From the NCBI GenBank assembly GCA_946615865.1, contig CAMOIJ010000021.1:1-41421 (forward strand): a stretch of DNA of 41,421 nucleotides, written 5' to 3'. Position 1 is the first letter of the stretch. Each line of letters starts with the position of its first letter. The notes beneath the pieces are model-generated. The model was not told the origin of the DNA. It worked only from the letters and a program-made list of their open reading frames with translations, and made no database searches. This DNA is from an uncultured Lachnospiraceae bacterium (lineage in GTDB: Bacteria; Bacillota; Clostridia; Lachnospirales; Lachnospiraceae). Below, piece by piece: positions 12,732 through 39,822 of the stretch. The translations under genes were made by a program, and so were the position numbers.

Positions 12732-13088
12732 ATGACTATATCGGAGAGGATATTTGAACTGCTGGATAAGCGTGGGATGAGCCAGAAGGAGTTTTCAGAG
12801 AAGACGGGGATTGCCCAGAGCAGCATAAGTGACTGGAAGAGGAAGAAGACGAATCCTGTGAGCGAGAAGATTCTGATCATCTGCAACGTGCTGGATGTGA
12901 CGCCTTATGAGCTTCTGGGAGGTACTGACGGAGTCGGAAGCCGAAGCAACCCGTCCGATATGATACTGATCGACAAGAATTCGGAATATGGCAGCGCTAT
13001 AATGGATTTTCTTGCCCTGGATAGAGGAAATCAGGGAAGGCTGCTCGGATACCTGAAAGCGCTTACAGAAATGCGGCAGGACAGCTGA
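12732..13088 (+). CDS. XRE-family (Cro/cI-type) DNA-binding regulator
   Basis: 118 aa. Residues 1-63 form a standard HTH_XRE domain (ISERIFELLDKRGMSQKEFS, then SSISDWKRKKTNPVSEKI), ending in the usual DVTPYELLG. The C-terminal half (about 64-118) is a short helical tail with no recognised ligand domain, probably for dimerisation. The start is supported by AGGTGAG three bases upstream of the ATG. No obvious target gene lies in the same operon; the next locus is a broken transposase. A local or phage-like repressor role is possible but not shown. Confidence 0.88.
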   Translation: MTISERIFELLDKRGMSQKEFSEKTGIAQSSISDWKRKKTNPVSEKILIICNVLDVTPYELLGGTDGVGSRSNPSDMILIDKNSEYGSAIMDFLALDRGNQGRLLGYLKALTEMRQDS

Positions 13089-26982: not shown

Positions 26983-29900
26983 ATGGAATTATCGTCAAAC
27001 AGCTTAAGCAATGAGATCAGCAAGGGATCCGTGAACGAAGCGCTGTCCATGCGCCGCGCGACTATGGAGGACGCCTTAAGCCGGTCAGCATCCGGAAGAA
27101 GACCGGATGCAATCTCCGACGAGGAGATCCATAATGGCGATCCGATCCTGAATACGTACAAGGTGACTTCCGACGCGATCCATGGCGGCATGGGGAGTGT
27201 CTGGCGGGTGCATCATAACGGCTGGGACGTGGATCTGGCCATGAAGCGCCCGCAGCCGAAGTACTTTGCCGAGGGAAGTGACGACAGCAAAGAGGAGTTC
27301 ATTGCGGAATGTGAGAACTGGATCAACCTGGGCCTTCACCCCGGCATTGTCAGTTGCTACTATGTGCGCGATATCAGCGGCGTTCCGTCCATTTTCTCGG
27401 AGTGGATGGACGGCGGCAGTCTCAGGGATCGGATCCGCGACGGCTCGCTCTACGAGGGCACGGAGCAGGAGGTGCAGGAGCGGATCCTGCGCATTGCCAT
27501 TCAGACTGCGAGGGGCCTTCGGTATTCCCACGAACAGGGGCTGGTCCATCAGGATGTAAAGCCGGGCAATGTTTTGCTGTCAAAAGAGTGGGACGCCAAG
27601 GTCTCCGACTTCGGCCTGGCCAAAGCACAGAGCCGGCTGCGTGACGGCGGCAAACCGCTTTCTTTCGGGGGTACTGTGGAATACTGCCCGCGAGAACAGG
27701 CGGAAGGCGGAGAGCCGGAAAGATGGATGGATCTGTACGCCTTCGCGCTGACGGTCATAGAGATGTTTGCGGGCGGCCGGTCATGGAAAACCGGCGCGGA
27801 AGCCGGGGAGCAGGCGGCAGAGATCCTGGGAAACTGTCGGGTGTCCTGCCCGGCGGATCTGGCGGAGGCGCTTGTGGCGTGGCTGCGCCACCCGGCCGGC
27901 GAGAATGCATCCGAGAGCAATGCATTCGGGCCCAACGCATCCGAGGGCAATGCCGGAGAGAATACGGCCGGTGATGTTTTATTTGGTGAAGTTGAACGGG
28001 TTCTGCTCAAGGTTTACCGGGATGTGACCGGCATGGAGTATCCGGATGACCGGACTTCTTCTGCCGACGCTACGTCGGACTCGCTCAACAACTATGCGCT
28101 GAGCTTTTTGGACCTGGGCTTTCCTGAGCACGCGGAGCAGCTTCTCGAGGAAGCAGTGCACAGGCAGAACAACGCGCGCAATCCGGTGTTCAATTATGCG
28201 CTGCTGCGCTGGCGGAGCGGAGAGATCACGGATGCGGAGTGTGTCGATTTTTTGACAGAGCATCTCGGGGACAGGGATGACAGCATTTCGGAGATCAAGC
28301 GGGAGCGCGGGTACGAAGACGGCTTGTGCCGGGTCACAACGGATACGTCTGTGTCCACTTACAATCTTAAGTCTCTTATGAAGCCCATGACGTTCGACGT
28401 CAGAGCGGCAAAACATGGAAACTATCTCGGCGTTCTCAGAGCCAGGGACTGGTCGGATCCCAATAATCTTTTTTCGGTCTTTTCCTGCGATGAAAACGGG
28501 ATCGCGGACAGCGAGATCATGCAGACGGAGACCGGGAATGCTTCGACATGCTTCAGCGTGATCGATGATTCGGTGCTTGTTTTTACAAACGAGGGCGTGC
28601 TGTTCTATCATTTTGGCGTTGGTGCGCCGTATCACACGATTCAGGAGAACGGCGCATACTGGAACAAGCATATCGTAGAGACGGATGATTCGCGGATCAT
28701 CGTCCTGACCAAAGAAAAGAATGGAAGCGGAGGCGGAAAGTATCGCTATTGCGTCGAGTTTTACGGGAATCTCGCTCAGCTGGTGGAAGGACGGGAGAGC
28801 CGGAGAACGGAAATTGAGATCTCTGATGAAATCGACAATGTGTATTGGATTACCGGAAAGCTCTTTCTCATCGGGTTCGACAGTGTCATCGTGTTGGACG
28901 GGCAGTTGAAAGAACTGGCGGATATCCCGATTCCGTCCATTGTTCAGGCAATTCTGAAGAATGATAAAGTGTATATTATGACAGGTAATGCGACCCTGTC
29001 ACTGGATACGGTAACACTTGAGAAGGAAACGATTGCCGCGAGTAGAAACTATGCCAATGGGAGAGGTGATGTGTCTTCGGATGGGAAACATGTCATCACA
29101 TTTGAAAATAGTCATATCAAGATTTATGATACGGAGCTGCACCGGTGCGTCGCGGACTGGCACGAGGACCGGTTCCGCGAGTGGGAAAAGGTCGTTGTGT
29201 TCGCCGGCAGCGCGGATACTTTTACACTGCATGTCAAGAACAAAGTCTATGATCAGTCCATTCATGGCCATCACCCGGAGTACATCTATGAAACATACAG
29301 GATTCCGGCTCCGGGAGAACCGTGCGCATGGAACCTTTCAAGGATCCAGAGCTTTTCTGAGCGCCTGGAAGCGGAGAAAGCATTCCGCAAGCTGCTCGGC
29401 GACGCCCATGACGCATTGGATGCCGGGAACATTCCTGCCTGCCTCCGCCTGTTGGAAGCGGGCTACGAGATGAAGGGATTCGAGCAAAACAGTGAACTCC
29501 GAAAGCTCAGTGAGACCGCCGGAAAGGGCAGGGATATTATCGGGATTCGGTATATACAGAAGGTGGTTTCCGCGTATGAACTTGCTTGTGGGGAAGAGGC
29601 TGTTGGGTTGACCGGGAACGGGAGAGTACTTACGTATTGCGGGGCGGAAGTCGCTCGGCAGCCGGGCGGCAGTCAGCGGCCGGAAGGCGATTGTCGGGCG
29701 GAGTACCGTCTGGTCGATTGGGAGACCGGGGAGATCCGGGCGGTTTATCCCGCTGCGGCCAACTCAGTGTTTGCCTGTGTCAGCAGGGATGGTTCTCTCG
29801 CCGCGGCGTTTGAGGATATCACTCAAGAAAGCTTTACTGTTCTTAAGATGTGTCTGGCGGACGGTGGTTCTGAGAGAGTTGTGGTTCCTGTCCATGCGGA

Positions 29901-30765
29901 GCCTGATCAGTTGCATGCCGCAACGGACGGAGAAAGGATTCTCATTTTTACAGGGCATCATTGCGTTCTGATTGGCAGAGGAGGCGAGTATCGGATAGCG
30001 GGAGCTGAGTCGGAATCCATGGCGTTTGGGTGTTTTTCGCCTGATGGGAGATATTTTGCCAGAGCCGGGATATCATCATACTCCAGCGGAAGCGAAGTCA
30101 TGGGACAGGGAGTGACGGTTATTCGGACCGAAGGCCTGCCGGAGGACCGCACAGTAGTATATAGCGCCGAGGCGTACGGACTGTCGGGATTGGATGTCAA
30201 TGACGAGGGGATGGCGCTGGTGTTTGCCATTGTGTTCTTCCCTGATGCGGCAGGGTTTGCGGTGCGGAGCGCCGGAATTGCTGGGGAAAGCAAATTCGAA
30301 GCGTCTTCATTTACGCCGGACGGCAGCGGGTTTGTGGCGGTCGGCGACGACGGGTCGCTTGCGCTGTTCTCGCCGCGATCGGATGACGACTATCTTATTG
30401 AGGTTCAGGACTCTGATCCGAGAAAAGGTCTTGTGTACGAAAGGCCGGTCAAATCTATGCGGATTCAGCCTTATGAGAGGGTTTCCGGAGCGTCAGCCAT
30501 TTCAACAGACGGAAGAATTCTGTTTAATGGAAACGGCACGGCTTTTCTCGACGCCGGCGGTGATCTCTGGGTGATCGATTATAGATATTCGTCGGATGAG
30601 CGTCGGCCGTTCCTCAGGCCGTCTTATGGAAAGATGACTCAGACCGACGAGTACCAGAGGGAGATCAGCAAGGCGGCGCGGCCTGAACTGTTCGCTCCTG
30701 ATAATAAGAGTAAGCGGGAAGGGAAGAAGGGGATTCTGGAGAGGCTGTTTGGATGGATGAGGTGA
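26983..30765 (+). CDS. Hanks-type Ser/Thr kinase with TPR-like and beta-propeller-like C-terminus
   Basis: 1260 aa, GGGGAGGT before the ATG. The kinase domain spans about residues 58-310: glycine loop GGMGSVWRV, Lys88 in LAMKRP, Glu109, catalytic loop HQDVKPGN (D191) and DFG at 209-211. All catalytic residues are present; the usual Arg of HRD is Gln (non-RD kinase), implying little dependence on activation-loop phosphorylation. An Asn/Ala/Ser/Glu-rich linker follows (about 308-330), then a TPR-like pair (about 368-420; LDLGFPEHAEQLLEEA), then about 780 residues of WD40/quinoprotein-like beta repeats (SPDGRYFARAG, TPDGSGFVAVGDDGSLALFS). There is no transmembrane segment, so it acts in the cytosol. 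Targets unknown; neither neighbouring gene encodes a PP2C phosphatase. Confidence 0.9.
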   Translation: MELSSNSLSNEISKGSVNEALSMRRATMEDALSRSASGRRPDAISDEEIHNGDPILNTYKVTSDAIHGGMGSVWRVHHNGWDVDLAMKRPQPKYFAEGSDDSKEEFIAECENWINLGLHPGIVSCYYVRDISGVPSIFSEWMDGGSLRDRIRDGSLYEGTEQEVQERILRIAIQTARGLRYSHEQGLVHQDVKPGNVLLSKEWDAKVSDFGLAKAQSRLRDGGKPLSFGGTVEYCPREQAEGGEPERWMDLYAFALTVIEMFAGGRSWKTGAEAGEQAAEILGNCRVSCPADLAEALVAWLRHPAGENASESNAFGPNASEGNAGENTAGDVLFGEVERVLLKVYRDVTGMEYPDDRTSSADATSDSLNNYALSFLDLGFPEHAEQLLEEAVHRQNNARNPVFNYALLRWRSGEITDAECVDFLTEHLGDRDDSISEIKRERGYEDGLCRVTTDTSVSTYNLKSLMKPMTFDVRAAKHGNYLGVLRARDWSDPNNLFSVFSCDENGIADSEIMQTETGNASTCFSVIDDSVLVFTNEGVLFYHFGVGAPYHTIQENGAYWNKHIVETDDSRIIVLTKEKNGSGGGKYRYCVEFYGNLAQLVEGRESRRTEIEISDEIDNVYWITGKLFLIGFDSVIVLDGQLKELADIPIPSIVQAILKNDKVYIMTGNATLSLDTVTLEKETIAASRNYANGRGDVSSDGKHVITFENSHIKIYDTELHRCVADWHEDRFREWEKVVVFAGSADTFTLHVKNKVYDQSIHGHHPEYIYETYRIPAPGEPCAWNLSRIQSFSERLEAEKAFRKLLGDAHDALDAGNIPACLRLLEAGYEMKGFEQNSELRKLSETAGKGRDIIGIRYIQKVVSAYELACGEEAVGLTGNGRVLTYCGAEVARQPGGSQRPEGDCRAEYRLVDWETGEIRAVYPAAANSVFACVSRDGSLAAAFEDITQESFTVLKMCLADGGSERVVVPVHAEPDQLHAATDGERILIFTGHHCVLIGRGGEYRIAGAESESMAFGCFSPDGRYFARAGISSYSSGSEVMGQGVTVIRTEGLPEDRTVVYSAEAYGLSGLDVNDEGMALVFAIVFFPDAAGFAVRSAGIAGESKFEASSFTPDGSGFVAVGDDGSLALFSPRSDDDYLIEVQDSDPRKGLVYERPVKSMRIQPYERVSGASAISTDGRILFNGNGTAFLDAGGDLWVIDYRYSSDERRPFLRPSYGKMTQTDEYQREISKAARPELFAPDNKSKREGKKGILERLFGWMR

Positions 30766-31243: not shown

Positions 31244-32632
31244 CTATATTTTGACCAAAATGTTGTTTAGTTTCAGCACGCAGGTGTACTGGATCTCGCG
31301 AGCGAGGTTGGCGATCATGCGGAGGCCGATGTGGTAGGTGGGGTCTTCGTCGGAGAGGAGGCGGAGCTGCTTGAGCGGGTCGAAGATCAGGCAGTCGTTG
31401 CGGAAGCGGACGTAGTAGCGGTCGCCTTTTTTGAGGACGCGGACTTCGATGCAGTGGGGCTTGCCGTCGGTGAAGCCGTGCTGGATCATGTTGCCTGCCA
31501 GTTCTTCGACGCTCAGGGCGAGGTGGTTTCGCCGGGTGGTGTCGCAGCCGTGTTCGTCGCAGAACTGCCACACGGTGTCGGTCAGGTTCATCACGTCGTC
31601 CATTCGGGTGATTGTGACGTCGAGTTTGTCCTGCTCGAGCACATCGAAGGTGTCGGGGAGCAGGAGGACACGGTTCCACAGGCCTTCGCGGTGGATTTTG
31701 AGCCGGCGGCTTTCGACGGCCACAACGATGCCGTAGTAGCACATCACGAGAAGCTGGGAAATGGGATAGGCCAGCCAGACGGCGTTGGCTCCGAAGGTCG
31801 GCATCATGGCTGCGGCCGAGAGGATCAGGAAGCCGGACTCACAGATAAATCCCGAAATGGACGCCAGGCGGCTCTTGCCGATGCCCTGGAAGTAGTTGAG
31901 GTAGATTAGGTTGAGGCCGTTGATGGGCATTCCGATGGCGTAGCAGCGCACCGCGGTGACTGCCAGACGAAGGGCTTCGGGGTTTCCTTTGATATACAGG
32001 GAGGCAAACTGAGGTGCCAAAATCCAGATCAGCGCAGCGATTCCCGCCGTTATGATGACGGTGGCCTGTACGGAAGTGAAGAGCAGGCGCTTCATCATGG
32101 GGCGGTCTTCTTCGCCGACCAGGATTCCTGCCAGGAGCGCCACGGTGTCAGCCATTCCTATGGTGACGGGATTAAAGAAGGAATCCGCCTGTCTGTGCAC
32201 TGAGTAGGCGGCAATGGCCGCGGAAGATGCGATGAGGGTCAGCATTCTGTTCATGAAGATGCAGCGGACGGTGTTTCCAAGGCGGCAGACGCCGGAGGGC
32301 ATTCCTTTGCCAAGTATCTCGGCAGACTCTTTCCAGGGAAGGTCTCTGAATGTAAAGCGGAGGAAAGCCTCCTTTTTGCGGAAGTGGGTGAGCAGGACGG
32401 CGAGCGCGACATAGTAACTGGCGCTGGTGGCGACGCCCATCTCAAAAGTTCCTCCGTGGAAGATCAGGACTGCCGCCAGGTCCATCACGATGTCTGAGAT
32501 GGTCAGTGCGATGGAGCTAAAGACCGGCAGGTTTCTGTCGTTGTCCAGGGGCATGAAGCCGTTGAGCACCCGAACCAAGTTCATTGCGGGCAGGCAAATT
32601 GTGATACAGTGGATTAGCAGAGCTGTGGACAT
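31244..32632 (-). CDS. MATE-type membrane protein fused to RsbW-like ATPase, N-terminally short
   Basis: 462 aa. Residues 1-330 are the later part of a MATE (MOP superfamily) transporter: the first segment (LVRVLNGFMPLDNDRNLPVF) corresponds to helix 4 onward, so about three N-terminal helices are missing compared with the family. Residues about 335-462 are a HATPase_c_2 domain with N-box LSVEELAGNMIQHGF and G-box HIGLRMIANLA, the type found in anti-sigma factor kinases such as RsbW and SpoIIAB. The fusion suggests a membrane-linked partner-switching kinase. The start ATG lies inside a 17-bp tandem repeat and has no ribosome site, so the gene may be 5'-truncated by the event that left the repeat. 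Confidence 0.8.
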   Translation of the reverse strand: MSTALLIHCITICLPAMNLVRVLNGFMPLDNDRNLPVFSSIALTISDIVMDLAAVLIFHGGTFEMGVATSASYYVALAVLLTHFRKKEAFLRFTFRDLPWKESAEILGKGMPSGVCRLGNTVRCIFMNRMLTLIASSAAIAAYSVHRQADSFFNPVTIGMADTVALLAGILVGEEDRPMMKRLLFTSVQATVIITAGIAALIWILAPQFASLYIKGNPEALRLAVTAVRCYAIGMPINGLNLIYLNYFQGIGKSRLASISGFICESGFLILSAAAMMPTFGANAVWLAYPISQLLVMCYYGIVVAVESRRLKIHREGLWNRVLLLPDTFDVLEQDKLDVTITRMDDVMNLTDTVWQFCDEHGCDTTRRNHLALSVEELAGNMIQHGFTDGKPHCIEVRVLKKGDRYYVRFRNDCLIFDPLKQLRLLSDEDPTYHIGLRMIANLAREIQYTCVLKLNNILVKI

Positions 32633-32730: not shown

Positions 32731-33711
32731 GTGAGACATTTTACATCAGTAGCCTGTTTTATTTGTTTTTTTATGATAGTGTTGTCGCTGTTTGACTTCT
32801 GTCACAGAGACGAAGTTTTGATCAGGGAGGGGCTGATTTCCAACCGGGACCTGGTCATAGCGCAGCTAGACACGGAGGAGCCTGATCAGATCGACGTTCT
32901 GTGTGTTGGAAACAGTTTGGGGTTCTGCAGCATCAACCCGATGGAGTTATACAGGAATACCGGAATCACTTCCTATGTCGCGAGTAATGCGATGCAGACG
33001 CCGGTGGAGACTTATTATGTGATACGAAAGGCGCTTAGGCGGCATCCGATCAAGGTCATCTTATGGGAGGCAGACAATATCGCCAGGGTAGACAATGATC
33101 TTATTATGGGGGCTTCGGCTCTGCTTGCCGAGGACCTCAGATATCATCATCCTTTTCTGCGATACCACAAAGCCTGGCTCAACAAGGTAAACGACTTCAT
33201 CCCAAGGCCCAATTTCAAGGGCTATGTCATCAATGAAGTGGTAAAACCCTATACAGGAGGGGAGTATTACAAGCAAGATGACACAAGCGTGGAAGAAATA
33301 AGCGCGGAAGGGCATTACTATTTTGACAAAATAAAGAAGCTGTGCGATGAAAAAAACATAAAGCTCGTGCTGTACAGCAATCCGTCTCCGGTTTGTTATG
33401 AACCTGCGGGCCATAACGGGATCATACAGTTCGCAAAAGAGAAAGGCCTGGATTACCTGGATGGGGACGCAGACCTTGCGCAGATCGGGATCGACTGGAG
33501 TACGGATATTTATGATGAGGGCGACCATCTGAATCTGGAAGGGGCGAAAAAGATGACCGGGTACGTCGCCCGTTACCTTATCAAAGAGCATGAACTTGCG
33601 GACCACCGGAATGATCCGGCCTATGAATCATGGAATGAGCTTTACTTGGCTTATGAGAAAGAGGCCGTAAGGATGAAGGGAACTGCATATTACAGGCTGG
33701 AGGAACAATGA
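32731..33711 (+). CDS. Membrane-anchored SGNH-hydrolase-like (DltD/AlgX-type) protein
   Basis: 326 aa from GTG 32731, with GAGGG seven bases upstream; an in-frame TTG at 32713 lacks a site. One N-terminal hydrophobic segment (FICFFMIVLSLF) anchors an extracellular domain. Block I is VLCVGNSLGFCSINP, with Ser in the nucleophile position, and the C-terminal catalytic block is DEGDHLNLEGAKKM (Asp and His). Such proteins are often acyl-transfer or esterase partners of MBOAT O-acyltransferases in cell-surface polymer modification. No MBOAT gene is near, so the substrate is unknown. The stop overlaps the next ATG (ATGA), so the two are co-translated. Confidence 0.75.
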   Translation: MRHFTSVACFICFFMIVLSLFDFCHRDEVLIREGLISNRDLVIAQLDTEEPDQIDVLCVGNSLGFCSINPMELYRNTGITSYVASNAMQTPVETYYVIRKALRRHPIKVILWEADNIARVDNDLIMGASALLAEDLRYHHPFLRYHKAWLNKVNDFIPRPNFKGYVINEVVKPYTGGEYYKQDDTSVEEISAEGHYYFDKIKKLCDEKNIKLVLYSNPSPVCYEPAGHNGIIQFAKEKGLDYLDGDADLAQIGIDWSTDIYDEGDHLNLEGAKKMTGYVARYLIKEHELADHRNDPAYESWNELYLAYEKEAVRMKGTAYYRLEEQ

Positions 33712-35242
33712 CCAAAAAAGAATCAATCTTCATCCTGTTTTCAATTACATTATGCTGGTCGTCCTCCTACATCTTTATCAAGGACATCCCGCAGAGTTTC
33801 TCGGTCTACGCGTATCTGGCACTGACGAGCGGCGTCGTCGGCGAGCGTGTATGCTTCGATGGAGATCATTATTGTGCCGCTCATCCTGATCTTGAGGAAG
33901 CAGTATCCGACTCGCAACAATGTGGTCGGAATCTTCATTATTTTGATAGGGATCCTGACGTCGAACTGGGGAACCATGGGAGGCGCGGGGCTGGTTGGGG
34001 CCCTGTATATTTTGGGATCGGCGGCGACAATGTCAATGTACACGGTGCTTGCCACGGAGTACACGAAGGAGTCGGACCCGTCGCTGCTGACGGTCCTGCA
34101 GATGCTTGTGTCGGCGGCGTTCGGCTTTGTGCTGTGGATGGCGACGGACGCGAGTTCGCTCTTTACGATCGAGTGGTCGCAGGTGACGTTGTCCTACATC
34201 TTCCTGATCGCGTTCTTCTCGAAGTGCTACGCATATCTGATGCTTATGTACGCGGACAAGTATGCGGACGCCGTGAGCGTTACGATCGTGGCTTCGACGG
34301 AGCCGGTTGTGACTTTGGTTGCGGCAGTGTTACTGCCCGAATCGATGGGCGGCGTCGAACAGTTCTCTGCCAAAGCAGTGATCGGCGCATTGATCATCTC
34401 TCTGGGCGCGATCGTCGCAGGCACGAATTTCTTGTCCAAAAAGGAAACAGCCCGAGCGGATGAAGATATAGAATCTCTCCTGGAGGAGCAGGCGGAGGCA
34501 GATGAAGAGATCGGAGAGGATATGGGCTTTGAGATGACGGTCAGGGTGCTGGAAGGCATTGAAGCTGCCCAGGCTCAGGACAAGGAAGCGGAGGCAAGGC
34601 TTCCTTCCCTGCCGGATCCCAAGGTGGTTTTTTTGCTGGTCGCATTGATGTTCGCCATCCTGTCCGCATCCATAAACGTAATGACTTTTGCGGGCGGCTA
34701 CTCGCAGATAAGACCGGTCAACTCGATTCCGGCGCCGGTGGGAATGGTCTTCGGACCGGTCGGCGCGCTCGGCTGCGCCATAGGAAACCTGTTGGGAGAC
34801 ATGGTCCGGATCAGTACCTTGCAGGGAACAGTGGTTCTCGGATTTATCGCGAACTTCCTGTCCGCCTATATACCTTATAAGGTATATAGAGCGATCGCCG
34901 GCGACATGGTCAATGTACATACCTGGAAGAAGATTGGCCTGTTCGCATGGTCGGCAGTGCTCAGCTGCCTGGCCTGCGCGCTGTTCCTGGGATTCGGCCT
35001 GGAAGTTGTTTTCGGGCAGTATTATGAGGGTATTGTAACAGGCATATTCATTAACAATTTAACGTTCACTATGGCGCTGGGCTTCCCCGTGCTCATTGTG
35101 TTGACGTCGAGCGACTTCGGCCTTGGAGCGTGGGTTACCTTGCAGCTTCGCAGGGAATCCTTTGCTGATGATTATGGGCGCCCTGACCCTGGGCTGCATT
35201 ATTGTCACCTGCCTGATGCAGGGGAGAGAAGCAGACGTTTGA
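33708..35242 (+). pseudogene. EamA (DMT) transporter fused to ECF S-component-like domain, broken twice
   Basis: Three frames are needed. 33708-33832 gives a normal EamA start (ITLCWSSSYIFIKDIPQSFS, YAYLALTSGV). From about 33833 another frame continues with SVYASMEIIIVPLILILRKQ and the rest of the EamA half (TEPVVTLVAAVLLPE); about 65 residues between them are missing. An acidic linker (about 34450-34610) joins a second membrane domain resembling ECF S-components of the QueT kind (GMVFGPVGALGCAIGNLLGD). Near 35150 the frame changes again; the natural hydrophobic end (MIMGALTLGCIIVTCLMQG) stops at 35240-35242. Its stop abuts the stop of the convergent gene. The EamA-ECF fusion itself is continuous in one open frame of over 1200 bases. 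Confidence 0.72.
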
Positions 35243-36706
35243 TCAATATCCTAATTTCTGGAAATACTTGACGAGGTTATGTTTTGCCCTGCTCGTGTTC
35301 ACATGCTTGAACCATGTGATATCGGGCAGGATTTTTTCGTTGGAGACAACTGTGATCAGGTCACCTTCGCTGAGGCGGGTGTTCTTGGGGAGCCTGGTCT
35401 TGGACTCGTCGACCATGGCGTACTCGAAATGGAGCCCCAGGTCGGTGTGGACATAGAAGGCGAAGTCCAGCACAGTGGCACCCTTGTCGATGTCCATGGC
35501 GGAGCCGTCGCGGCGGAAGACTTTGATCTTCTCGTTGTAAGTGTCCTGCGGCTCGATCTCGTTGACGTTGTGAATGGCAAAATCGGAGTCCGGATCCACG
35601 ATGCTGCCGTAGAGGAAGCGAAGGTACTCCAGCTCGGTCCGCACGAAGAGGCGGTAGAGGTTGTCCGTCTCGTCGGCGAGCAGGAAGTATCCGGTATCCT
35701 TGTTGGTGGTGAAACAGTACTTGACCAGGTAGAAGCCCTTCGACGAGAGGGCCCTGTCAAAATAGTGAAAGAACACATCATATGGGTGCAAACCGGACTT
35801 CTCTTCGCCGAGTTCATCGCTCACGATCAGTGTCACGTCGTAGAGTTCGATGTTGTATTTGGTGAGGAGCGAAGACCAGTCTTCCCTGAGATTCTTGGCG
35901 TCGCGGCTGATCTGGCGGTAAATGCTGATCTTAGAGCGCTCGCTGTGGATCAGGTCCACGATGTAGCGGCGGTAGCGGCTGAGCGCCGCGCTGCTGTAAT
36001 CCGAGCTGAAGATTTGTTCCAGTGTATTGAGAGATTCCTTGCAGGCATTACTGTTAGTCTCCAGCAGATGGCTGTACTGCCCCTCGATGTTGTCATACAT
36101 GGCGGGGTGCTCTATTTTGAAACAGAGCTCTTCCAGAACATCGGCCAGGTGGTCCGCCTTAGCAAGCCTTGCCATGGGAATGATGATCGCCTTGGTGTGT
36201 TCAGCCTTGGGGATGCGCTTCTCCTCCTTCACGCCGGAGAGGGTATTGAGGTTGTCGATCCGGTCGGCGATCTTGACCAGAAGGGCCTTGCTGTTCATCT
36301 TGCGCTGCAGCTTGGCGTCCGAAAGCATATCCTTCTGCGCCTTTGTCAGGGTGTGATTGGCTGCGTCAAAGTCTTTGTCGCTCAGAGCTGTCACTGCGTC
36401 TACGATGTCCGCGACGCTCGAATCGAACTGCTTCTCGATGTCTTCGAGCGTAACGTCGCAATCCTCGACTACGTCATGGAGCAGCGCCGCCATTATCACA
36501 TCGCTCTCAGCTCCCCATTCAGCTACAGAACGCGCTGCGCGAAGCACGTGATTGATATAAGGCTCGCCCGAACCACGGTTCACTCCCGAATGCTTTTCCT
36601 CAGCAAAGTGGTAAGCGCGCTTGATGCCGTTCTTATTCCCCACTTTGTGATTCTTGCTGTAAATGTTCATGATATCGCTAAATTCAACTTTCAGTTCATA
36701 TGCCAT
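35243..36706 (-). CDS. RelA/SpoT-like HD-TGS protein with degenerate synthetase region
   Basis: 487 aa from the ATG at 36706, which has an excellent site (AAAGGAGG); upstream frame to 36781 overlaps the previous gene. Residues about 28-185 are the RelA-type HD hydrolase: H53 in GEPYINHV, H77-D78 in AALLHDVVED, D148 in KIADRIDNL. Residues about 395-487 are a TGS domain (FRRDGSAMDIDKGATVLDFA). The part between (about 265-390) follows the synthetase topology loosely (SKISIYRQISRD; NIELYDVTLIVSD; YRLFVRTELEYL) but lacks the usual ATP- and GTP-binding signatures. The helical, zinc-finger and ACT regions of Rel are absent. A (p)ppGpp hydrolase or nucleotide sensor role is inferred. It is the second gene of an operon with the XRE regulator (29-base gap). 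Confidence 0.82.
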   Translation of the reverse strand: MAYELKVEFSDIMNIYSKNHKVGNKNGIKRAYHFAEEKHSGVNRGSGEPYINHVLRAARSVAEWGAESDVIMAALLHDVVEDCDVTLEDIEKQFDSSVADIVDAVTALSDKDFDAANHTLTKAQKDMLSDAKLQRKMNSKALLVKIADRIDNLNTLSGVKEEKRIPKAEHTKAIIIPMARLAKADHLADVLEELCFKIEHPAMYDNIEGQYSHLLETNSNACKESLNTLEQIFSSDYSSAALSRYRRYIVDLIHSERSKISIYRQISRDAKNLREDWSSLLTKYNIELYDVTLIVSDELGEEKSGLHPYDVFFHYFDRALSSKGFYLVKYCFTTNKDTGYFLLADETDNLYRLFVRTELEYLRFLYGSIVDPDSDFAIHNVNEIEPQDTYNEKIKVFRRDGSAMDIDKGATVLDFAFYVHTDLGLHFEYAMVDESKTRLPKNTRLSEGDLITVVSNEKILPDITWFKHVNTSRAKHNLVKYFQKLGY

Positions 36707-36735
36707 GGGTGCCTCCTTTCCGCGCCGGGCGATCT

Positions 36736-37887
36736 TTAGTCTGAACTCTTCACGGAAGCGGCCTTGATGGCGTGATACCACTGGTCGTCGTCTGTCGTCC
36801 CTGAGATCTTCCCATATCTGAACATATTCCGCTCCAAGCTCTTCTTAACAAACCGTTCTAAAGTCGATCTGACCATAACTGCCTTCTGGTACTCTGAAAA
36901 TCTCTCATTTAACACTCCGTCCGGCTCCGCGTACAGCGCCTTGAAGTTCATGATCATCTCATCCACCATCTCCGGGTCCGCCTCGAAATCCGGGTAATCA
37001 AGCAGGAGATTGTGATGGATCTCCTCCTCTGACATGGTGAGAGGGTATCTCGAAATTCCCATAAACTGGATCACCGGCGTGTGCTCGCGCCCCTTGGATA
37101 CTGAGTTGATCGTTCCGATGCCTCCGATATACTCGGGCTTATTGTTGTCGATCCTGTGGAAGATCAGCAGCGCTTTGTCTGTGCTGGCGTGGCTCATACT
37201 GACAAAAGCATGGAACTGGGAGAGTGTGAAATCTCCGAAATAGGCTCTGCTCTCGTAGTTTTCGCCGATGTGCCGGATGACTTCCTCAGGGTTTTTCATT
37301 TGGTCCAGCTCTGTTTTGACCCGGGTGACTTCGCTTCTGTCATTGATCCCGAGAATAGCCGCGCAGCCGAATTCCGGCACGTCCAGGGAAGTGGGATTCT
37401 CATATATGTAGAGAACGCCGTAATGAAGGGAATCCCTGGGCGGCAGCAGGTCCCGTCCCTTCGACTTGCTCGTGTCAAAATAGTACATGTAGTAAGCTGC
37501 ACAGTACTTGAGGAAGGTTTCCATCTTCTCCTTGTCTATTCCCGCGCTCCTCGGAGTTACTGTGACGGCAGAAGGAGTGATGCTCTTAGTAAGGAAATCG
37601 TCGATGGAGATGTCAAAGTGTTTCTTGAGCCTGAGCAGGTGCTCTGTGCCCAGGATCCTCCGGCCTTTACAGTAGTCGGTCATCGAGGCGGGCGCCACGC
37701 AGAGCAGGTCTGCCAGGTCTTTCTGCGTTATACCTTGCTGTGCGATCAGCTTCTTAAGGTTGGAAGATACAATCTCTGCCAGGTCCTGGTTGTTCGCTGC
37801 CGCCGCAGATCTTCCGGTGGTTCCATTGGTGCCGCCGGCTCCGGAAGTCCCGGAGATTCCAGTCCCGTTTTTCTCACTTGCAGTCAT
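36736..37887 (-). CDS. XRE regulator with large uncharacterised C-terminal domain
   Basis: 383 aa; AAAGGAGG before the ATG. Residues 1-33 are Gly/Thr/Ser/Ala-rich and probably disordered. Residues about 37-98 are an HTH_XRE domain (LKKLIAQQGITQKDLADLLC, SMTDYCKGRRI). The remaining 270 residues (KMETFLKYCAAYYMYYFDTS; FGDFTLSQFHAFVSMSHAST; a helical end) match no domain I recognise; the alternating beta strands suggest a sensor fold. It precedes the HD-TGS gene by 29 bases and is transcribed from a near-consensus promoter, so I infer that it controls or works with that protein. Confidence 0.82.
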   Translation of the reverse strand: MTASEKNGTGISGTSGAGGTNGTTGRSAAAANNQDLAEIVSSNLKKLIAQQGITQKDLADLLCVAPASMTDYCKGRRILGTEHLLRLKKHFDISIDDFLTKSITPSAVTVTPRSAGIDKEKMETFLKYCAAYYMYYFDTSKSKGRDLLPPRDSLHYGVLYIYENPTSLDVPEFGCAAILGINDRSEVTRVKTELDQMKNPEEVIRHIGENYESRAYFGDFTLSQFHAFVSMSHASTDKALLIFHRIDNNKPEYIGGIGTINSVSKGREHTPVIQFMGISRYPLTMSEEEIHHNLLLDYPDFEADPEMVDEMIMNFKALYAEPDGVLNERFSEYQKAVMVRSTLERFVKKSLERNMFRYGKISGTTDDDQWYHAIKAASVKSSD

Positions 37888-37920
37888 TTATATTCGCCTC
37901 CTTTGTTTGATGATTGACCA

Positions 37921-37949
37921 ATTATAGTGGAAATTAACTGATAATTCAA
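37921..37949 (-). promoter_or_regulatory. Sigma-A promoter of the XRE/HD-TGS operon
   Basis: On the minus strand TTGAAT (37949-37944), a 17-base spacer and perfect TATAAT (37926-37921), 33 bases before the start codon. The 307-base divergent region 37888-38194 has no gene. Its AATTATAG octamer occurs at 37920 (the -10 region), 38037 and 38071. Confidence 0.78.
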
Positions 37950-38194: not shown

Positions 38195-38980
38195 ATGTAT
38201 CCCATTCTATGCGAAGACGGGAAAGTGTACTATGGACTGACTCTATTGACATTCGGGAAAGGAGTCCGAAAAGCGAGACCGCTGTGCAGGCTGCTCAACG
38301 CGGCGCTTCCGGCCGGCTCTGTTTTGACTTTCCTCATCGGCGCAGCATTACTTTTCTGGCAAAACAGCGACCGTGTCCCGGTGGACAACTACAGCCTGCT
38401 TCTGTTCTACGCTCTGGTAATCGTGTCCATGTTCATGCACGAGGCTGCGCACCTGATCGCTGCCGTGGCGTATGGCTACCCGGTGTCAGAAGCGGGCGTC
38501 ATTTTCTATCTGAAAATCCTCCCGGCCTGCCTCTATGTGGGACACGGCCGGAAGAAAAATGCCACCAAAGGCGAAGAGATCCAGCTGGCACTGGCAGGGA
38601 TCGAGGCGAATCTTCTCGCCGCAGGTCTGTTCTTGCTTGTCGCCGCGCTGTGGGAAGATCTCAGCATGACTTTCTTCGCAGCAGCGGTCTCCAACATCTT
38701 CATCATCATATCCAATCTTGTGCCCGCCAAAGGAATGGAAGACGACGGAGAGGTCGCACTGAATTGCCTGTTCGAAGTAAAGAGCATCTATACAGTTGCC
38801 AGAAAGTGTATGAGAAGCAAAAAGCGACGCCGCAGGCTAATCCGCTCCGCAGGACTGTCCGGTATAGCTTGCATCGCGCTTTTCCGTCTCATCCTCTTCA
38901 CAAATGAAAAGTATATCCTGTGGGCCGGATTCATCATTTTCAGCCCGATGGTGTTCATAATGCTGTATTGCAATGCATAG
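38195..38980 (+). CDS. M50-like membrane zinc metalloprotease
   Basis: 261 aa with about five or six hydrophobic segments. The zinc motif HEAAH (H82, E83, H86) lies in a membrane helix after FYALVIVSMFM, and the third ligand motif of site-2 protease-like enzymes is visible as NLVPAKGMEDDG (N174, P177, D184). Such enzymes cut within membranes, in regulated proteolysis of anti-sigma factors or in maturation of small secreted peptides. A basic cytosolic patch (MRSKKRRRRL) precedes the last helices. It forms an operon with a membrane-anchored LRR protein (26-base gap). Its substrate is not evident. Confidence 0.82.
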   Translation: MYPILCEDGKVYYGLTLLTFGKGVRKARPLCRLLNAALPAGSVLTFLIGAALLFWQNSDRVPVDNYSLLLFYALVIVSMFMHEAAHLIAAVAYGYPVSEAGVIFYLKILPACLYVGHGRKKNATKGEEIQLALAGIEANLLAAGLFLLVAALWEDLSMTFFAAAVSNIFIIISNLVPAKGMEDDGEVALNCLFEVKSIYTVARKCMRSKKRRRRLIRSAGLSGIACIALFRLILFTNEKYILWAGFIIFSPMVFIMLYCNA

Positions 38981-38992
38981 GGGTCAGACCCC
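38979..38992. repeat. REP-like palindrome AGGGGTCAGACCCC
   Basis: Begins on the middle base of the stop codon of the M50-like gene and fills half of the gap to the LRR gene. Same core as the perfect palindrome at 15068. In the mRNA it would form a small hairpin just ahead of the LRR ribosome site. Confidence 0.7.
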
Positions 38993-39006
38993 GGAAGGAG
39001 GTTACA

Positions 39007-39822
39007 ATGAAAACAAGGACTATCATGGCAGCTGTTATTGCAGCGATCCTCATCGTGATCTGCGGCGGATCCGCAATTCATTATTTGCTGGACAACATGC
39101 CCGTCGTCTTTAACGATCCCGCGCTTGAACTGGCTGTTCGCACCGGCCTCGGGATCTCAGACCGCCCGATCACCCGCAAAGAAGCCCGGGAAGTCGTCTC
39201 CCTGGACCCCTCCCTCATGGAGGGATACACCAAAGAAATCACAGATCTAAGAGGCCTTTCTGCTTTTTCCAATCTCAAAAAACTGAATCTCGCCAACAAC
39301 ATGATTACAGACATCAGCGAACTCAGTAAGCTCAAAGAATTGAAGATCCTACACCTTGTTGGCAACCAGATCAGCGACGTCGCAGCCCTGTCATCCCTCA
39401 CCAACCTCGAGTTCCTCGACCTTGAGGGCAACAAAATTTCAGACATCAGCGCCCTCAAGCGCCTCACCAAACTCACCGTCCTGGACCTCCGCAATAACCA
39501 CATTTCAGACATCAGCAGCCTTTCAGCCATGAAGGATATGAGATGCCTCTACCTCGGCAACAACGAGATCACCGACATCACACCCCTGCAATCGCTGGTG
39601 AAACTGACTTACCTGAGCGTGGGCGGGAACGAGATCTCAGACATCGAACCGATCTCAGACATGAAAACCCTCGACCACCTTCTGGTCAGCAACAACCGGA
39701 TCAGCGACATCAGCGTACTCCAGAACCTTCCCGGCCTCGAATACCTGGACGTTCAGGGGAACCCGATTGACCCAGGTTTTACGCTCGACGACGTGGCTGA
39801 AAGTTGTACGGTGATCCAGTGA
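39007..39822 (+). CDS. Membrane-anchored leucine-rich repeat protein (internalin-type repeats)
   Basis: 271 aa from ATG 39007 (GGAAGGAGG upstream); an in-frame ATG at 38920 overlaps the protease gene and is unlikely. An N-terminal hydrophobic segment (IMAAVIAAILIVICGG) acts as signal anchor. A short helical cap (FNDPALELAVRTGL) is followed by about eight 22-residue LRRs (LxxLxxLxLxxNxISDIS), as in internalins. There is no cell-wall sorting signal. The LRR face probably binds a protein; the operon with an M50-like protease suggests it could be a partner or substrate, which is inference. Confidence 0.88.
   Translation: MKTRTIMAAVIAAILIVICGGSAIHYLLDNMPVVFNDPALELAVRTGLGISDRPITRKEAREVVSLDPSLMEGYTKEITDLRGLSAFSNLKKLNLANNMITDISELSKLKELKILHLVGNQISDVAALSSLTNLEFLDLEGNKISDISALKRLTKLTVLDLRNNHISDISSLSAMKDMRCLYLGNNEITDITPLQSLVKLTYLSVGGNEISDIEPISDMKTLDHLLVSNNRISDISVLQNLPGLEYLDVQGNPIDPGFTLDDVAESCTVIQ

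Follow-up and report, generated by a model that had tools for sequence, protein, structure and literature searches.

To our knowledge, none of the known long RSH enzymes is coupled directly to a transcription factor. In the window analysed here (41,421 nucleotides from an uncultured Lachnospiraceae bacterium), the gene for an XRE regulator is followed, on the same strand, by that of an HD-TGS protein whose best PDB sequence match is 7qpr, listed as 'ACT domain protein' (E 7.3e-40). We take 7qpr to be SpoTAb, the hydrolase-only SpoT of Acinetobacter baumannii: it carries Ser407 at the position aligned with His420 of the window's protein, which is consistent with the S407 of PMC9974481. SpoTAb resembles the HD-TGS protein as a long RSH with an active HD domain (an activity that is predicted here), a non-functional synthetase position and a TGS domain. 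Published work on SpoTAb describes the TGS and the connecting Core as keeping the HD domain of SpoTAb active, and the TGS histidine, replaced by S407 in SpoTAb, as recognising the tRNA CCA end (PMC9974481). SpoTAb has lost the CCA-binding histidine, whereas the HD-TGS protein keeps His420. SpoTAb also has HEL, ZFD and RRM domains, a tail that is absent from the window's protein, and a pseudo-SYNTH domain that is visible in its crystal structure. The excerpts from PMC9974481 mention no XRE partner for SpoTAb; here an XRE gene lies upstream and a full Rel is also found in the genome.

RshC, from Bacilli, is a long RSH subgroup in which some members have no ACT domain (Atkinson et al. 2011, PMC3153485); the excerpted text mentions neither synthetase loss nor an XRE partner, and the comparison is by description only. 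The small alarmone hydrolases (MESH1, Lmo0812, CG11900 and others) share the HD pyrophosphohydrolase sequence (PDB 5vxa, 4yf1, 3nqw), but the matched chains are HD-only, of about 180-190 residues, while the HD-TGS protein adds a middle region and a TGS domain. The genome's own canonical Rel (L042, 768 aa, on contig C19) has HD and TGS domains of the same families and is 36% identical to the HD-TGS protein over residues 9-208 of the latter. However, it also carries the RelA_SpoT synthetase, AH/RIS and ACT domains, none of which occurs in the 487 aa of the HD-TGS protein. The pair differs from toxSAS toxin-antitoxin systems in that neither protein has a PF04607 synthetase.

Gene layout and the XRE regulator

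The XRE gene (36736..37887, minus strand, 383 aa) comes first and the HD-TGS gene (35243..36706, minus strand, 487 aa) second, where the sequence-only reading had placed them. They are separated by 29 bases (36707..36735, minus strand), with an AAGGAGG ribosome-binding site ahead of the ATG start codon of the HD-TGS gene. The mechanically called reading frame opens upstream, at GTG 36781, and overlaps the XRE gene. The two genes probably form an operon. The near-consensus promoter reported earlier was recovered as a putative promoter of the XRE gene (37921..37949, minus strand) reading TTGAAT-17-TATAAT, with 10/12 consensus bases. A second candidate, TTGACA-16-CATAAT (38122-38095, 11/12 consensus bases), lies farther upstream, and the scan gave 6 promoter-like sites for a shuffle mean of 2.3 (sd 1.5).

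Pfam assigns HTH_3 alone to the XRE protein (residues 44-98, E 3.2e-8), which thus has the Cro/CI-type HTH for DNA binding that marks XRE regulators. Its C-terminal remainder matches no Pfam family above the curated cut-off, in agreement with the earlier description of a large domain of no assigned family. In the predicted structure, residues 1-31 are of low confidence, a beta-barrel-like domain extends over residues ~120-282 and the C-terminus (287-377) is helical. The list given by the fold search was taken up mostly by matches to the HTH. XRE-cupin type regulators combine an XRE-type HTH with a ligand-binding barrel C-domain. The protein resembles them in having an N-terminal HTH_3 followed by a predicted beta-rich, barrel-like domain, but shows no Pfam match over the C-domain. 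This domain may bind a small ligand or the HD-TGS partner.

Operators were searched for in 38 dereplicated upstream regions (of 49), using 100 shuffles. The observed count was 14 for AATTCGA (shuffle mean 3.5, maximum 8), 7 for TTTTTCAG (mean 1.2, maximum 3), 4 for GAATTNTCAG (mean 0.2, maximum 1), 11 for TTCGAA (mean 5.3, maximum 10), 15 for ATTCGA (mean 8.6, maximum 16) and 9 for ATTCGAA (mean 3.2, maximum 9). Since the patterns were picked after inspecting the data, these motifs are to be read as suggestive.

HD and TGS domains of the second protein

The HD-TGS protein is composed of an HD domain (residues ~20-180), connecting helices (~180-215), a middle region (210-392), a TGS domain (~393-460) and a short tail, the C-terminus lying about 30 residues beyond the TGS. 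Pfam HD_4 matches residues 31-179 (36170..36616, minus strand, E 1.5e-24) and Pfam TGS (PF02824) residues 394-454 (35345..35527, minus strand, E 1e-10). The TGS domain was found in 20/20 members scanned, and a second TGS-like repeat can be read by eye in two members (L092 and G448). The Pfam scan gave no RelA_SpoT synthetase, ACT or AH_RIS family in the window's protein, and neither this protein nor five other members carry the C-terminal AH/RIS (HEL/ZFD) and ACT/RRM domains according to Pfam. The RelA-type HD, the TGS and the loss of the usual C-terminus had thus been correctly recognised from the sequence alone. The best stretch of the TIGR00691 match covers residues 31-230 (E 7.6e-62), with a score of 209.6 bits that is below the cut-off of 499.2. 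In a full-length profile alignment, the protein matches 52 canonical Rel proteins (from 55 loci processed) over 434 columns (E 3.9e-58) and is thus RSH-derived. The gene would descend from a long RSH of the Rel type, having retained the 3'-pyrophosphohydrolase HD and the TGS and been truncated just past the TGS.

In the window's HD domain, the catalytic residues R44, H53, H77-D78, E81-D82, D148 and N152 are all present. Among 41 family members, H53 is conserved in 41, H77 and D78 in 40 each, E81, D148 and N152 in 39 each and D82 in 37. The TGS His420, which aligns with position 432 of E. coli RelA, is kept in 39 of the 41. These counts leave aside identical copies, fragments under 440 aa (L067, L091), two loci with the XRE gene at a contig end (L071, L094), a fragment with an internal stop (G008) and a split frame (G448). 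L088/L051 has no HD-TGS row, presumably because another frame was taken; its gene enters the count as L011.

The HD motif is lost in L092 and G448 (L146) and altered in L021 and L022, and all four retain the XRE partner, suggesting that hydrolysis is dispensable in some members. The distant members with a damaged or lost HD also still carry the middle region and the TGS. Together with the retention of the TGS histidine in most members and the very strong co-divergence of the two proteins (see below), this would suit a pure receptor, in which the HD-TGS protein mainly binds alarmone and/or uncharged tRNA and, in the role of co-repressor or anti-repressor, signals this to XRE, while hydrolysis does no more than reset it. 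The pair would then be a stringent-response-gated transcription switch. We regard this as possible but somewhat unlikely, because most members by far retain the HD residues, which is not obviously needed for binding alone, and the upstream motifs, from a search confined to the operon's own upstream region, are weakly supported. The HD-TGS protein probably destroys alarm nucleotides, and it shows no sign of an ability to synthesise them. A hydrolase-only nucleotide switch, as envisaged from the sequence alone, is plausible.

The middle region

The middle region (residues 210-392; 35531..36079, minus strand) lies at the synthetase position. It has no curated Pfam match. The RelA_SpoT synthetase profile PF04607 matches 0/20 family members even with E values of up to 10 allowed; it does match the canonical Rel of this genome, at 6.2e-45. 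A PDB profile search with the middle region also gave no match up to E 10. Compared in isolation with the synthetase of 52 diverse Rel proteins, it scores 13.6, a value reached by 58 of 100 shuffled profiles and lower than its score against the unrelated Rel C-terminus (17.5). Against 19 close Rel proteins the local score is 20.2 and is equalled in 3/60 block shuffles, but it stems from the helices that follow the HD domain (window residues ~191-217) rather than from the core of the synthetase. Globally, 50/60 shuffles score as high or higher. The full-length Rel alignment, anchored by HD and TGS, crosses the middle region in register, mostly with low per-column confidence, which is high only around SIYRQI. 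In this low-confidence register, and in the full-length alignment only, the invariant R352 would line up with Rel Glu354 or lie adjacent to it.

These comparisons do not support homology of the middle region to the synthetase: Pfam and PDB gave no match, and the region taken alone aligns with diverse Rel proteins at chance level. It had been proposed that the region lacks an intact synthetase while keeping its outline. The first part stands; the second is weaker than proposed, since the isolated region aligns at chance level and the 'outline' comes down to position and a few motifs. The middle region is under purifying selection, with dN/dS values of 0.08-0.27 in 6/6 pairs, clearly above the HD value in three of them. 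It may have replaced the synthetase or have diverged from it beyond recognition.

The homology of HD and TGS to Rel could also be that of a decaying Rel duplicate, the middle region being a synthetase relic of no special function. This is hardly credible in view of the selection on the middle region (even with values above those of HD in three pairs), of the same architecture and fixed partner across dozens of loci, and of the co-divergence of the two proteins.

Pairing, distribution and possible role

The HD-TGS gene is immediately downstream in 19/19 relatives with the XRE gene. At loci retrieved by XRE alone it adjoins downstream in 33/35, and the remaining two end with the contig. A genome-context survey had been suggested from the sequence alone, and it found the pair conserved as neighbours. 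In one genome (G044) HD-TGS occurs with no XRE detected, either adjacent or elsewhere in the genome (E up to 1e-8). The two proteins diverge in step: their distances correlate with r 0.97 (18 genomes) and 0.957 once the Rel signal is removed. This is far closer than either tracks canonical Rel (r 0.56 for HD-TGS against Rel; both pass a permutation test). Of the 19 genomes that carry the gene pair, the co-divergence test took in 18, without G010, whose Rel is divided between two contigs.

Canonical Rel is present in 26/26 genomes examined, and the module is thus accessory. Its occurrence is patchy (21/195 relatives) and its carriers are gut and rumen bacteria. A middle-TGS profile matches 3/392 genomes sampled over the order and 1/398 sampled over the phylum, the single phylum match being the genome of the window itself, which marks the family as narrow. 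Apart from the pair itself, no conserved neighbours were found; the M50-like and EamA-like genes on its flanks were detected in 1/61 genomes (the window's own) at the E limits used. Many carrier genomes have short synthetase-domain genes on other contigs, which are not typed as toxSAS.

Such genes, the patchy distribution and the joining of HD to a TGS with the CCA-binding histidine would agree with tRNA 3'-end repair. In this case the TGS would deliver the CCA end to the HD domain for removal of a pyrophosphate placed by toxSAS, and the module would amount to a hydrolase that provides immunity or acts like an antitoxin. We consider this doubtful: the pair has no other conserved neighbour, HD-dead members exist, and canonical Rel, which has the same two domains, plays no part in tRNA 3'-end repair that we know of.

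A defence role, including abortive infection, had also been envisaged. With PADLOC 2.0.0, the HD-TGS protein matches 0 families and the matches of XRE are confined to residues 29-124, an HTH-level likeness to the RmrA and CapH models. None of 10 sampled neighbour proteins matches; the PADLOC and Pfam neighbour scans covered 10 proteins each, a small share of all neighbours. Most of the neighbours seen have metabolic or housekeeping functions. Phage and plasmid collections were queried with XRE and with middle-TGS. XRE has no match in 50,697 phage and 72,556 plasmid records. The middle-TGS query matches 10 phage and 18 plasmid records, 0 of them covering 80% of the query, and among the matches listed (10/10 phage, 10/18 plasmid) only the TGS part (query 176-301) is covered; several of these are annotated as RelA/SpoT-type and several are unannotated. 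HD-type phage families resemble the HD domain (phrog_990, E 1.5e-30), and viral-contig scans gave no relative of XRE or HD-TGS. A mobile or viral origin is thus unsupported, XRE being without phage or plasmid match and the listed middle-TGS matches being limited to the TGS.

These searches also leave the defence proposal unsupported. A toxin-antitoxin or abortive infection system would have XRE as antitoxin and autorepressor and HD-TGS as a toxin, draining for example alarmone or another nucleotide, that is freed on phage attack. The position of the XRE gene at the head of a two-gene operon, the patchy occurrence, a co-inheritance that tracks Rel loosely and the likeness of the XRE HTH to defence models would fit. 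It is nevertheless improbable given the PADLOC results for both proteins and the sampled neighbours, the metabolic or housekeeping character of most neighbours, and the phage and plasmid results.

The reading that we favour, with about even confidence, is that the pair constitutes a two-gene module, an accessory, regulator-coupled hydrolase and receptor of alarmone (3'-pyrophosphate), as a variant of the RSH theme. XRE would be the transcription factor controlling the operon, and the HD-TGS protein, in its accessory role, would hydrolyse (p)ppGpp or related 3'-pyrophosphates and act as their receptor. Sensing by the TGS and the middle region would set the state of the protein, the leading candidate signal being the 3' end of uncharged tRNA. 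Both proteins would act as one unit, and XRE would in turn respond to the hydrolase and its state. A bolder version, which we judge unlikely, is that XRE is bound to this synthetase-free Rel derivative, which reads uncharged tRNA and alarmone independently of the ribosome and responds by switching genes or erasing 3'-pyrophosphates. In this version, a new domain, the middle region, would have taken the synthetase's place, and the pair would be a new class of stringent-response device.

If the favoured reading is true, the module would give these bacteria a second means of reading the stringent signal or of cancelling it, linked directly to a transcription factor. It would also be a natural case for studying the Rel TGS without the synthetase or ribosome-binding parts. 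Whether the protein is an enzyme or a receptor can be tested directly by comparing members whose HD site is damaged with the others. Finally, the module could help to explain the tuning of growth in rumen and gut Lachnospiraceae.

Organization and conservation of the gene pair

The XRE gene (36736-37887, minus strand, 383 aa) is the first of the operon. The ATG of the HD-TGS gene (35243-36706, minus strand, 487 aa) lies 29 bases past it, with a good ribosome-binding site. The sequence-only reading of this layout is borne out in several respects. A sigma-70-type promoter matching 10 of 12 consensus bases (37949-37921, minus strand) precedes the XRE gene, and Pfam finds HTH_3 and no family above cut-off in the rest of the XRE protein. 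The RelA-type HD and TGS domains of the second protein are recognized (HD_4, residues 31-179; TGS, 394-454) without any synthetase, AH/RIS or ACT family, in agreement with the proposed absence of the usual C-terminus. The NCBIfam RelA/SpoT model gives E 7.6e-62, yet far under its curated cut-off. The motif AATTCGA, picked after viewing the data, occurs upstream of the XRE gene in 14 of 38 dereplicated loci (mean 3.5, maximum 8 in 100 shuffles) and is a possible operator.

HD-TGS proteins were identified in 21 of 195 relatives (E up to 1e-30) and XRE proteins in 19 (E up to 1e-8), all within those 21. The two HD-TGS carriers without an XRE match are G008, whose gene is a fragment with an internal stop, and G044, whose gene is of the long type (L055:9484-11310, plus strand) and has no detectable XRE gene beside it or elsewhere in the genome. 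An independent scan with the XRE alignment returned 35 named loci, 10 of whose contigs, to judge by their lengths, were already in the 195-relative search, so that the two sets overlap. HD-TGS lies downstream in 32 of these loci by profile; the relatives search adds L088, whose contig is that of G047. The pairing is therefore kept in other genomes: by coordinates, XRE is directly upstream on the same strand in 19/19 relatives that have it, and the pair is found at 33/35 scanned loci, the contig ending inside or just past XRE in the other two (L071 and L094). Genome G448 carries the pair as well, its HD-TGS gene being broken. In the window, a 118-aa ORF (12732-13088, plus strand) gives a weak match to the profile of the XRE family (E 4.6e-6), probably through an HTH.

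The 35 loci are labelled Lachnospiraceae (23), Clostridia (3), Eubacteriales (2), Prevotellaceae (2), Blautia, Lachnoclostridium, Sarcina, Saccharofermentans and Oscillospiraceae, and rumen or gut is named as the sample source for several. The Prevotellaceae-labelled contigs (L076 and L091, from two drafts; XRE 48% and 66% identical to that of the window) are possibly misbinned.

HD, middle and TGS regions

The hydrolase residues of the HD domain show near-complete conservation among 41 family members (H53 in 41, H77 and D78 in 40, E81, D148 and N152 in 39, D82 in 37). D82 is absent from L078, and the motif is partly altered in L021 and L022. It is lost in L092 (9091-10872, plus strand; Oscillospiraceae label) and degenerate in G448 (L146:2637-4336, plus strand), where two overlapping frames together make up the gene. 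These two distant members are related to each other and group together in the midpoint-rooted tree (support 0.98), while L022 belongs to a supported clade, next to intact relatives, and L021 stands alone on a long branch. To judge from this placement, HD damage seems to have arisen more than once. All four keep their XRE partner, which directly adjoins the gene in L092 and G448.

The outline of a (p)ppGpp synthetase previously attributed to the middle region is less firm than proposed. Full-length profiles, anchored by HD and TGS, align with Rel over 434 columns (E 3.9e-58), placing SIYRQI under SIYKKM, LYDV under IYDL and RLFVRT near EIQIRT, with high confidence only around SIYRQI. However, none of 20 members matches the RelA_SpoT family, no PDB sequence matches the middle-region profile, and the isolated region aligns with 52 Rel synthetases no better than block-shuffled versions do, 58 of 100 of which score as well, and worse than with the Rel C-terminus. 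Its position and these motifs make descent from a synthetase plausible, while another domain may instead have taken its place. The region is not a relic: its dN/dS is 0.08-0.27 in 6/6 pairs (HD, 0.03-0.16), clearly above HD in three, the ratio being rough in two pairs with synonymous distances near or >1.

His420 of the TGS domain corresponds in the alignment to E. coli RelA position 432 and to Ser407 of PDB 7qpr. This His is present in 39/41 members and is Asp in L069 and L078. According to PMC9974481, Rel and RelA use it to recognize the 3' CCA end of tRNA, and SpoTAb, the hydrolase-only SpoT of A. baumannii, has lost it (S407), a difference from the HD-TGS family, which keeps it. Members of 608-639 aa carry a second TGS-like repeat after the first; Pfam marks TGS twice in L014 and L020 and once in L016 and L022, and a second repeat was read by eye in L092 and G448.

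Co-divergence and genomic context

Across 18 genomes in which HD-TGS, XRE and Rel all occur, the pairwise distances of the first two are strongly correlated (r 0.97; 0.957 with the Rel signal taken out). Those of HD-TGS and Rel give r 0.56. Both values exceed all 2000 permutations, indicating that common ancestry with Rel contributes too. Very different versions of the pair can occur in close relatives with 90% identical Rel (G000 and G007: HD-TGS 29% and XRE 23% identical), which suggests that the pair may be exchanged or replaced as a unit and hints that the two proteins might touch each other.

Across the family the pair has no conserved neighbour besides itself. Pfam names EamA, MatE, M50, LRR proteins, acetyltransferase, Ldh_2, RlaP, Sir2 and ATP-grasp among the surrounding genes, and histidyl- and aspartyl-tRNA synthetases were recognized by eye. 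One clade of 8 loci (L081, L082, L085, L086, L087, L089, L090 and L093; module at about 7.9-10.7 kb) has a common chromosomal neighbourhood, where the pair lies near genes taken to be hisS and aspS, as well as Sir2 and two genes for RimK-like ATP-grasp proteins. In many Firmicutes, rel has hisS and aspS as neighbours.

In the window, an M50-like membrane peptidase (38195-38980) and a leucine-rich-repeat protein (38920-39822), both on the plus strand, lie upstream of the module; of the 61 genomes searched, only the window's own has a match to the former (E up to 1e-20). An EamA-type transporter (33708-35271, plus strand) spans two overlapping frames (33708-34463 and 33847-35271) and looks frame-shifted, by mutation or assembly. 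One minus-strand frame (31244-32632) joins MatE (121-264) to HATPase_c_2 (349-449), a combination that looks unusual, and a 1260-aa protein (26983-30765, plus strand) carries a serine/threonine protein kinase domain at its N-terminus, its long C-terminal part giving no more than a weak match to WD40.

The defence role earlier considered finds no support in the searches made: no PADLOC model matches the HD-TGS protein or any of ten neighbours sampled at five loci, and XRE is matched only around the HTH. No copies came up in searches of phage, plasmid and viral sequences (phage and plasmid queries: XRE and middle-TGS); in the matches listed, the middle-TGS query was covered only over its TGS part. 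An anti-phage function is conceivable, but nothing here points to it.

Relation to Rel and significance

The window's genome (draft, 2.68 Mb, 106 contigs, 88% complete) also encodes an ordinary Rel of 768 aa that includes the synthetase, AH/RIS and ACT domains. Canonical Rel is present in 26/26 genomes searched, 4 of them lacking an HD-TGS match and 22 having one (as a fragment in one case); in G010 this Rel is divided between two contigs. The module is therefore additional to Rel and no substitute for it.

In the 2011 RSH survey (PMC3153485), Clostridia have Rel and often small synthetases, and RshC of Bacilli sometimes lacks ACT. Titles and abstract openings of open-access literature on hydrolase-only or truncated RSH with TGS, toxSAS and HTH partners yielded no description of the pair. 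Hydrolase-only RSH proteins are already known. XRE and HD-TGS constitute a genuine two-gene module, common to dozens of gut and rumen genomes and pairing a dedicated XRE regulator with a Rel derivative that has no recognizable synthetase. Its interest lies in the fixed transcription-factor partner, the absent tail, the preservation of the CCA histidine and the loss of the HD site in some members.
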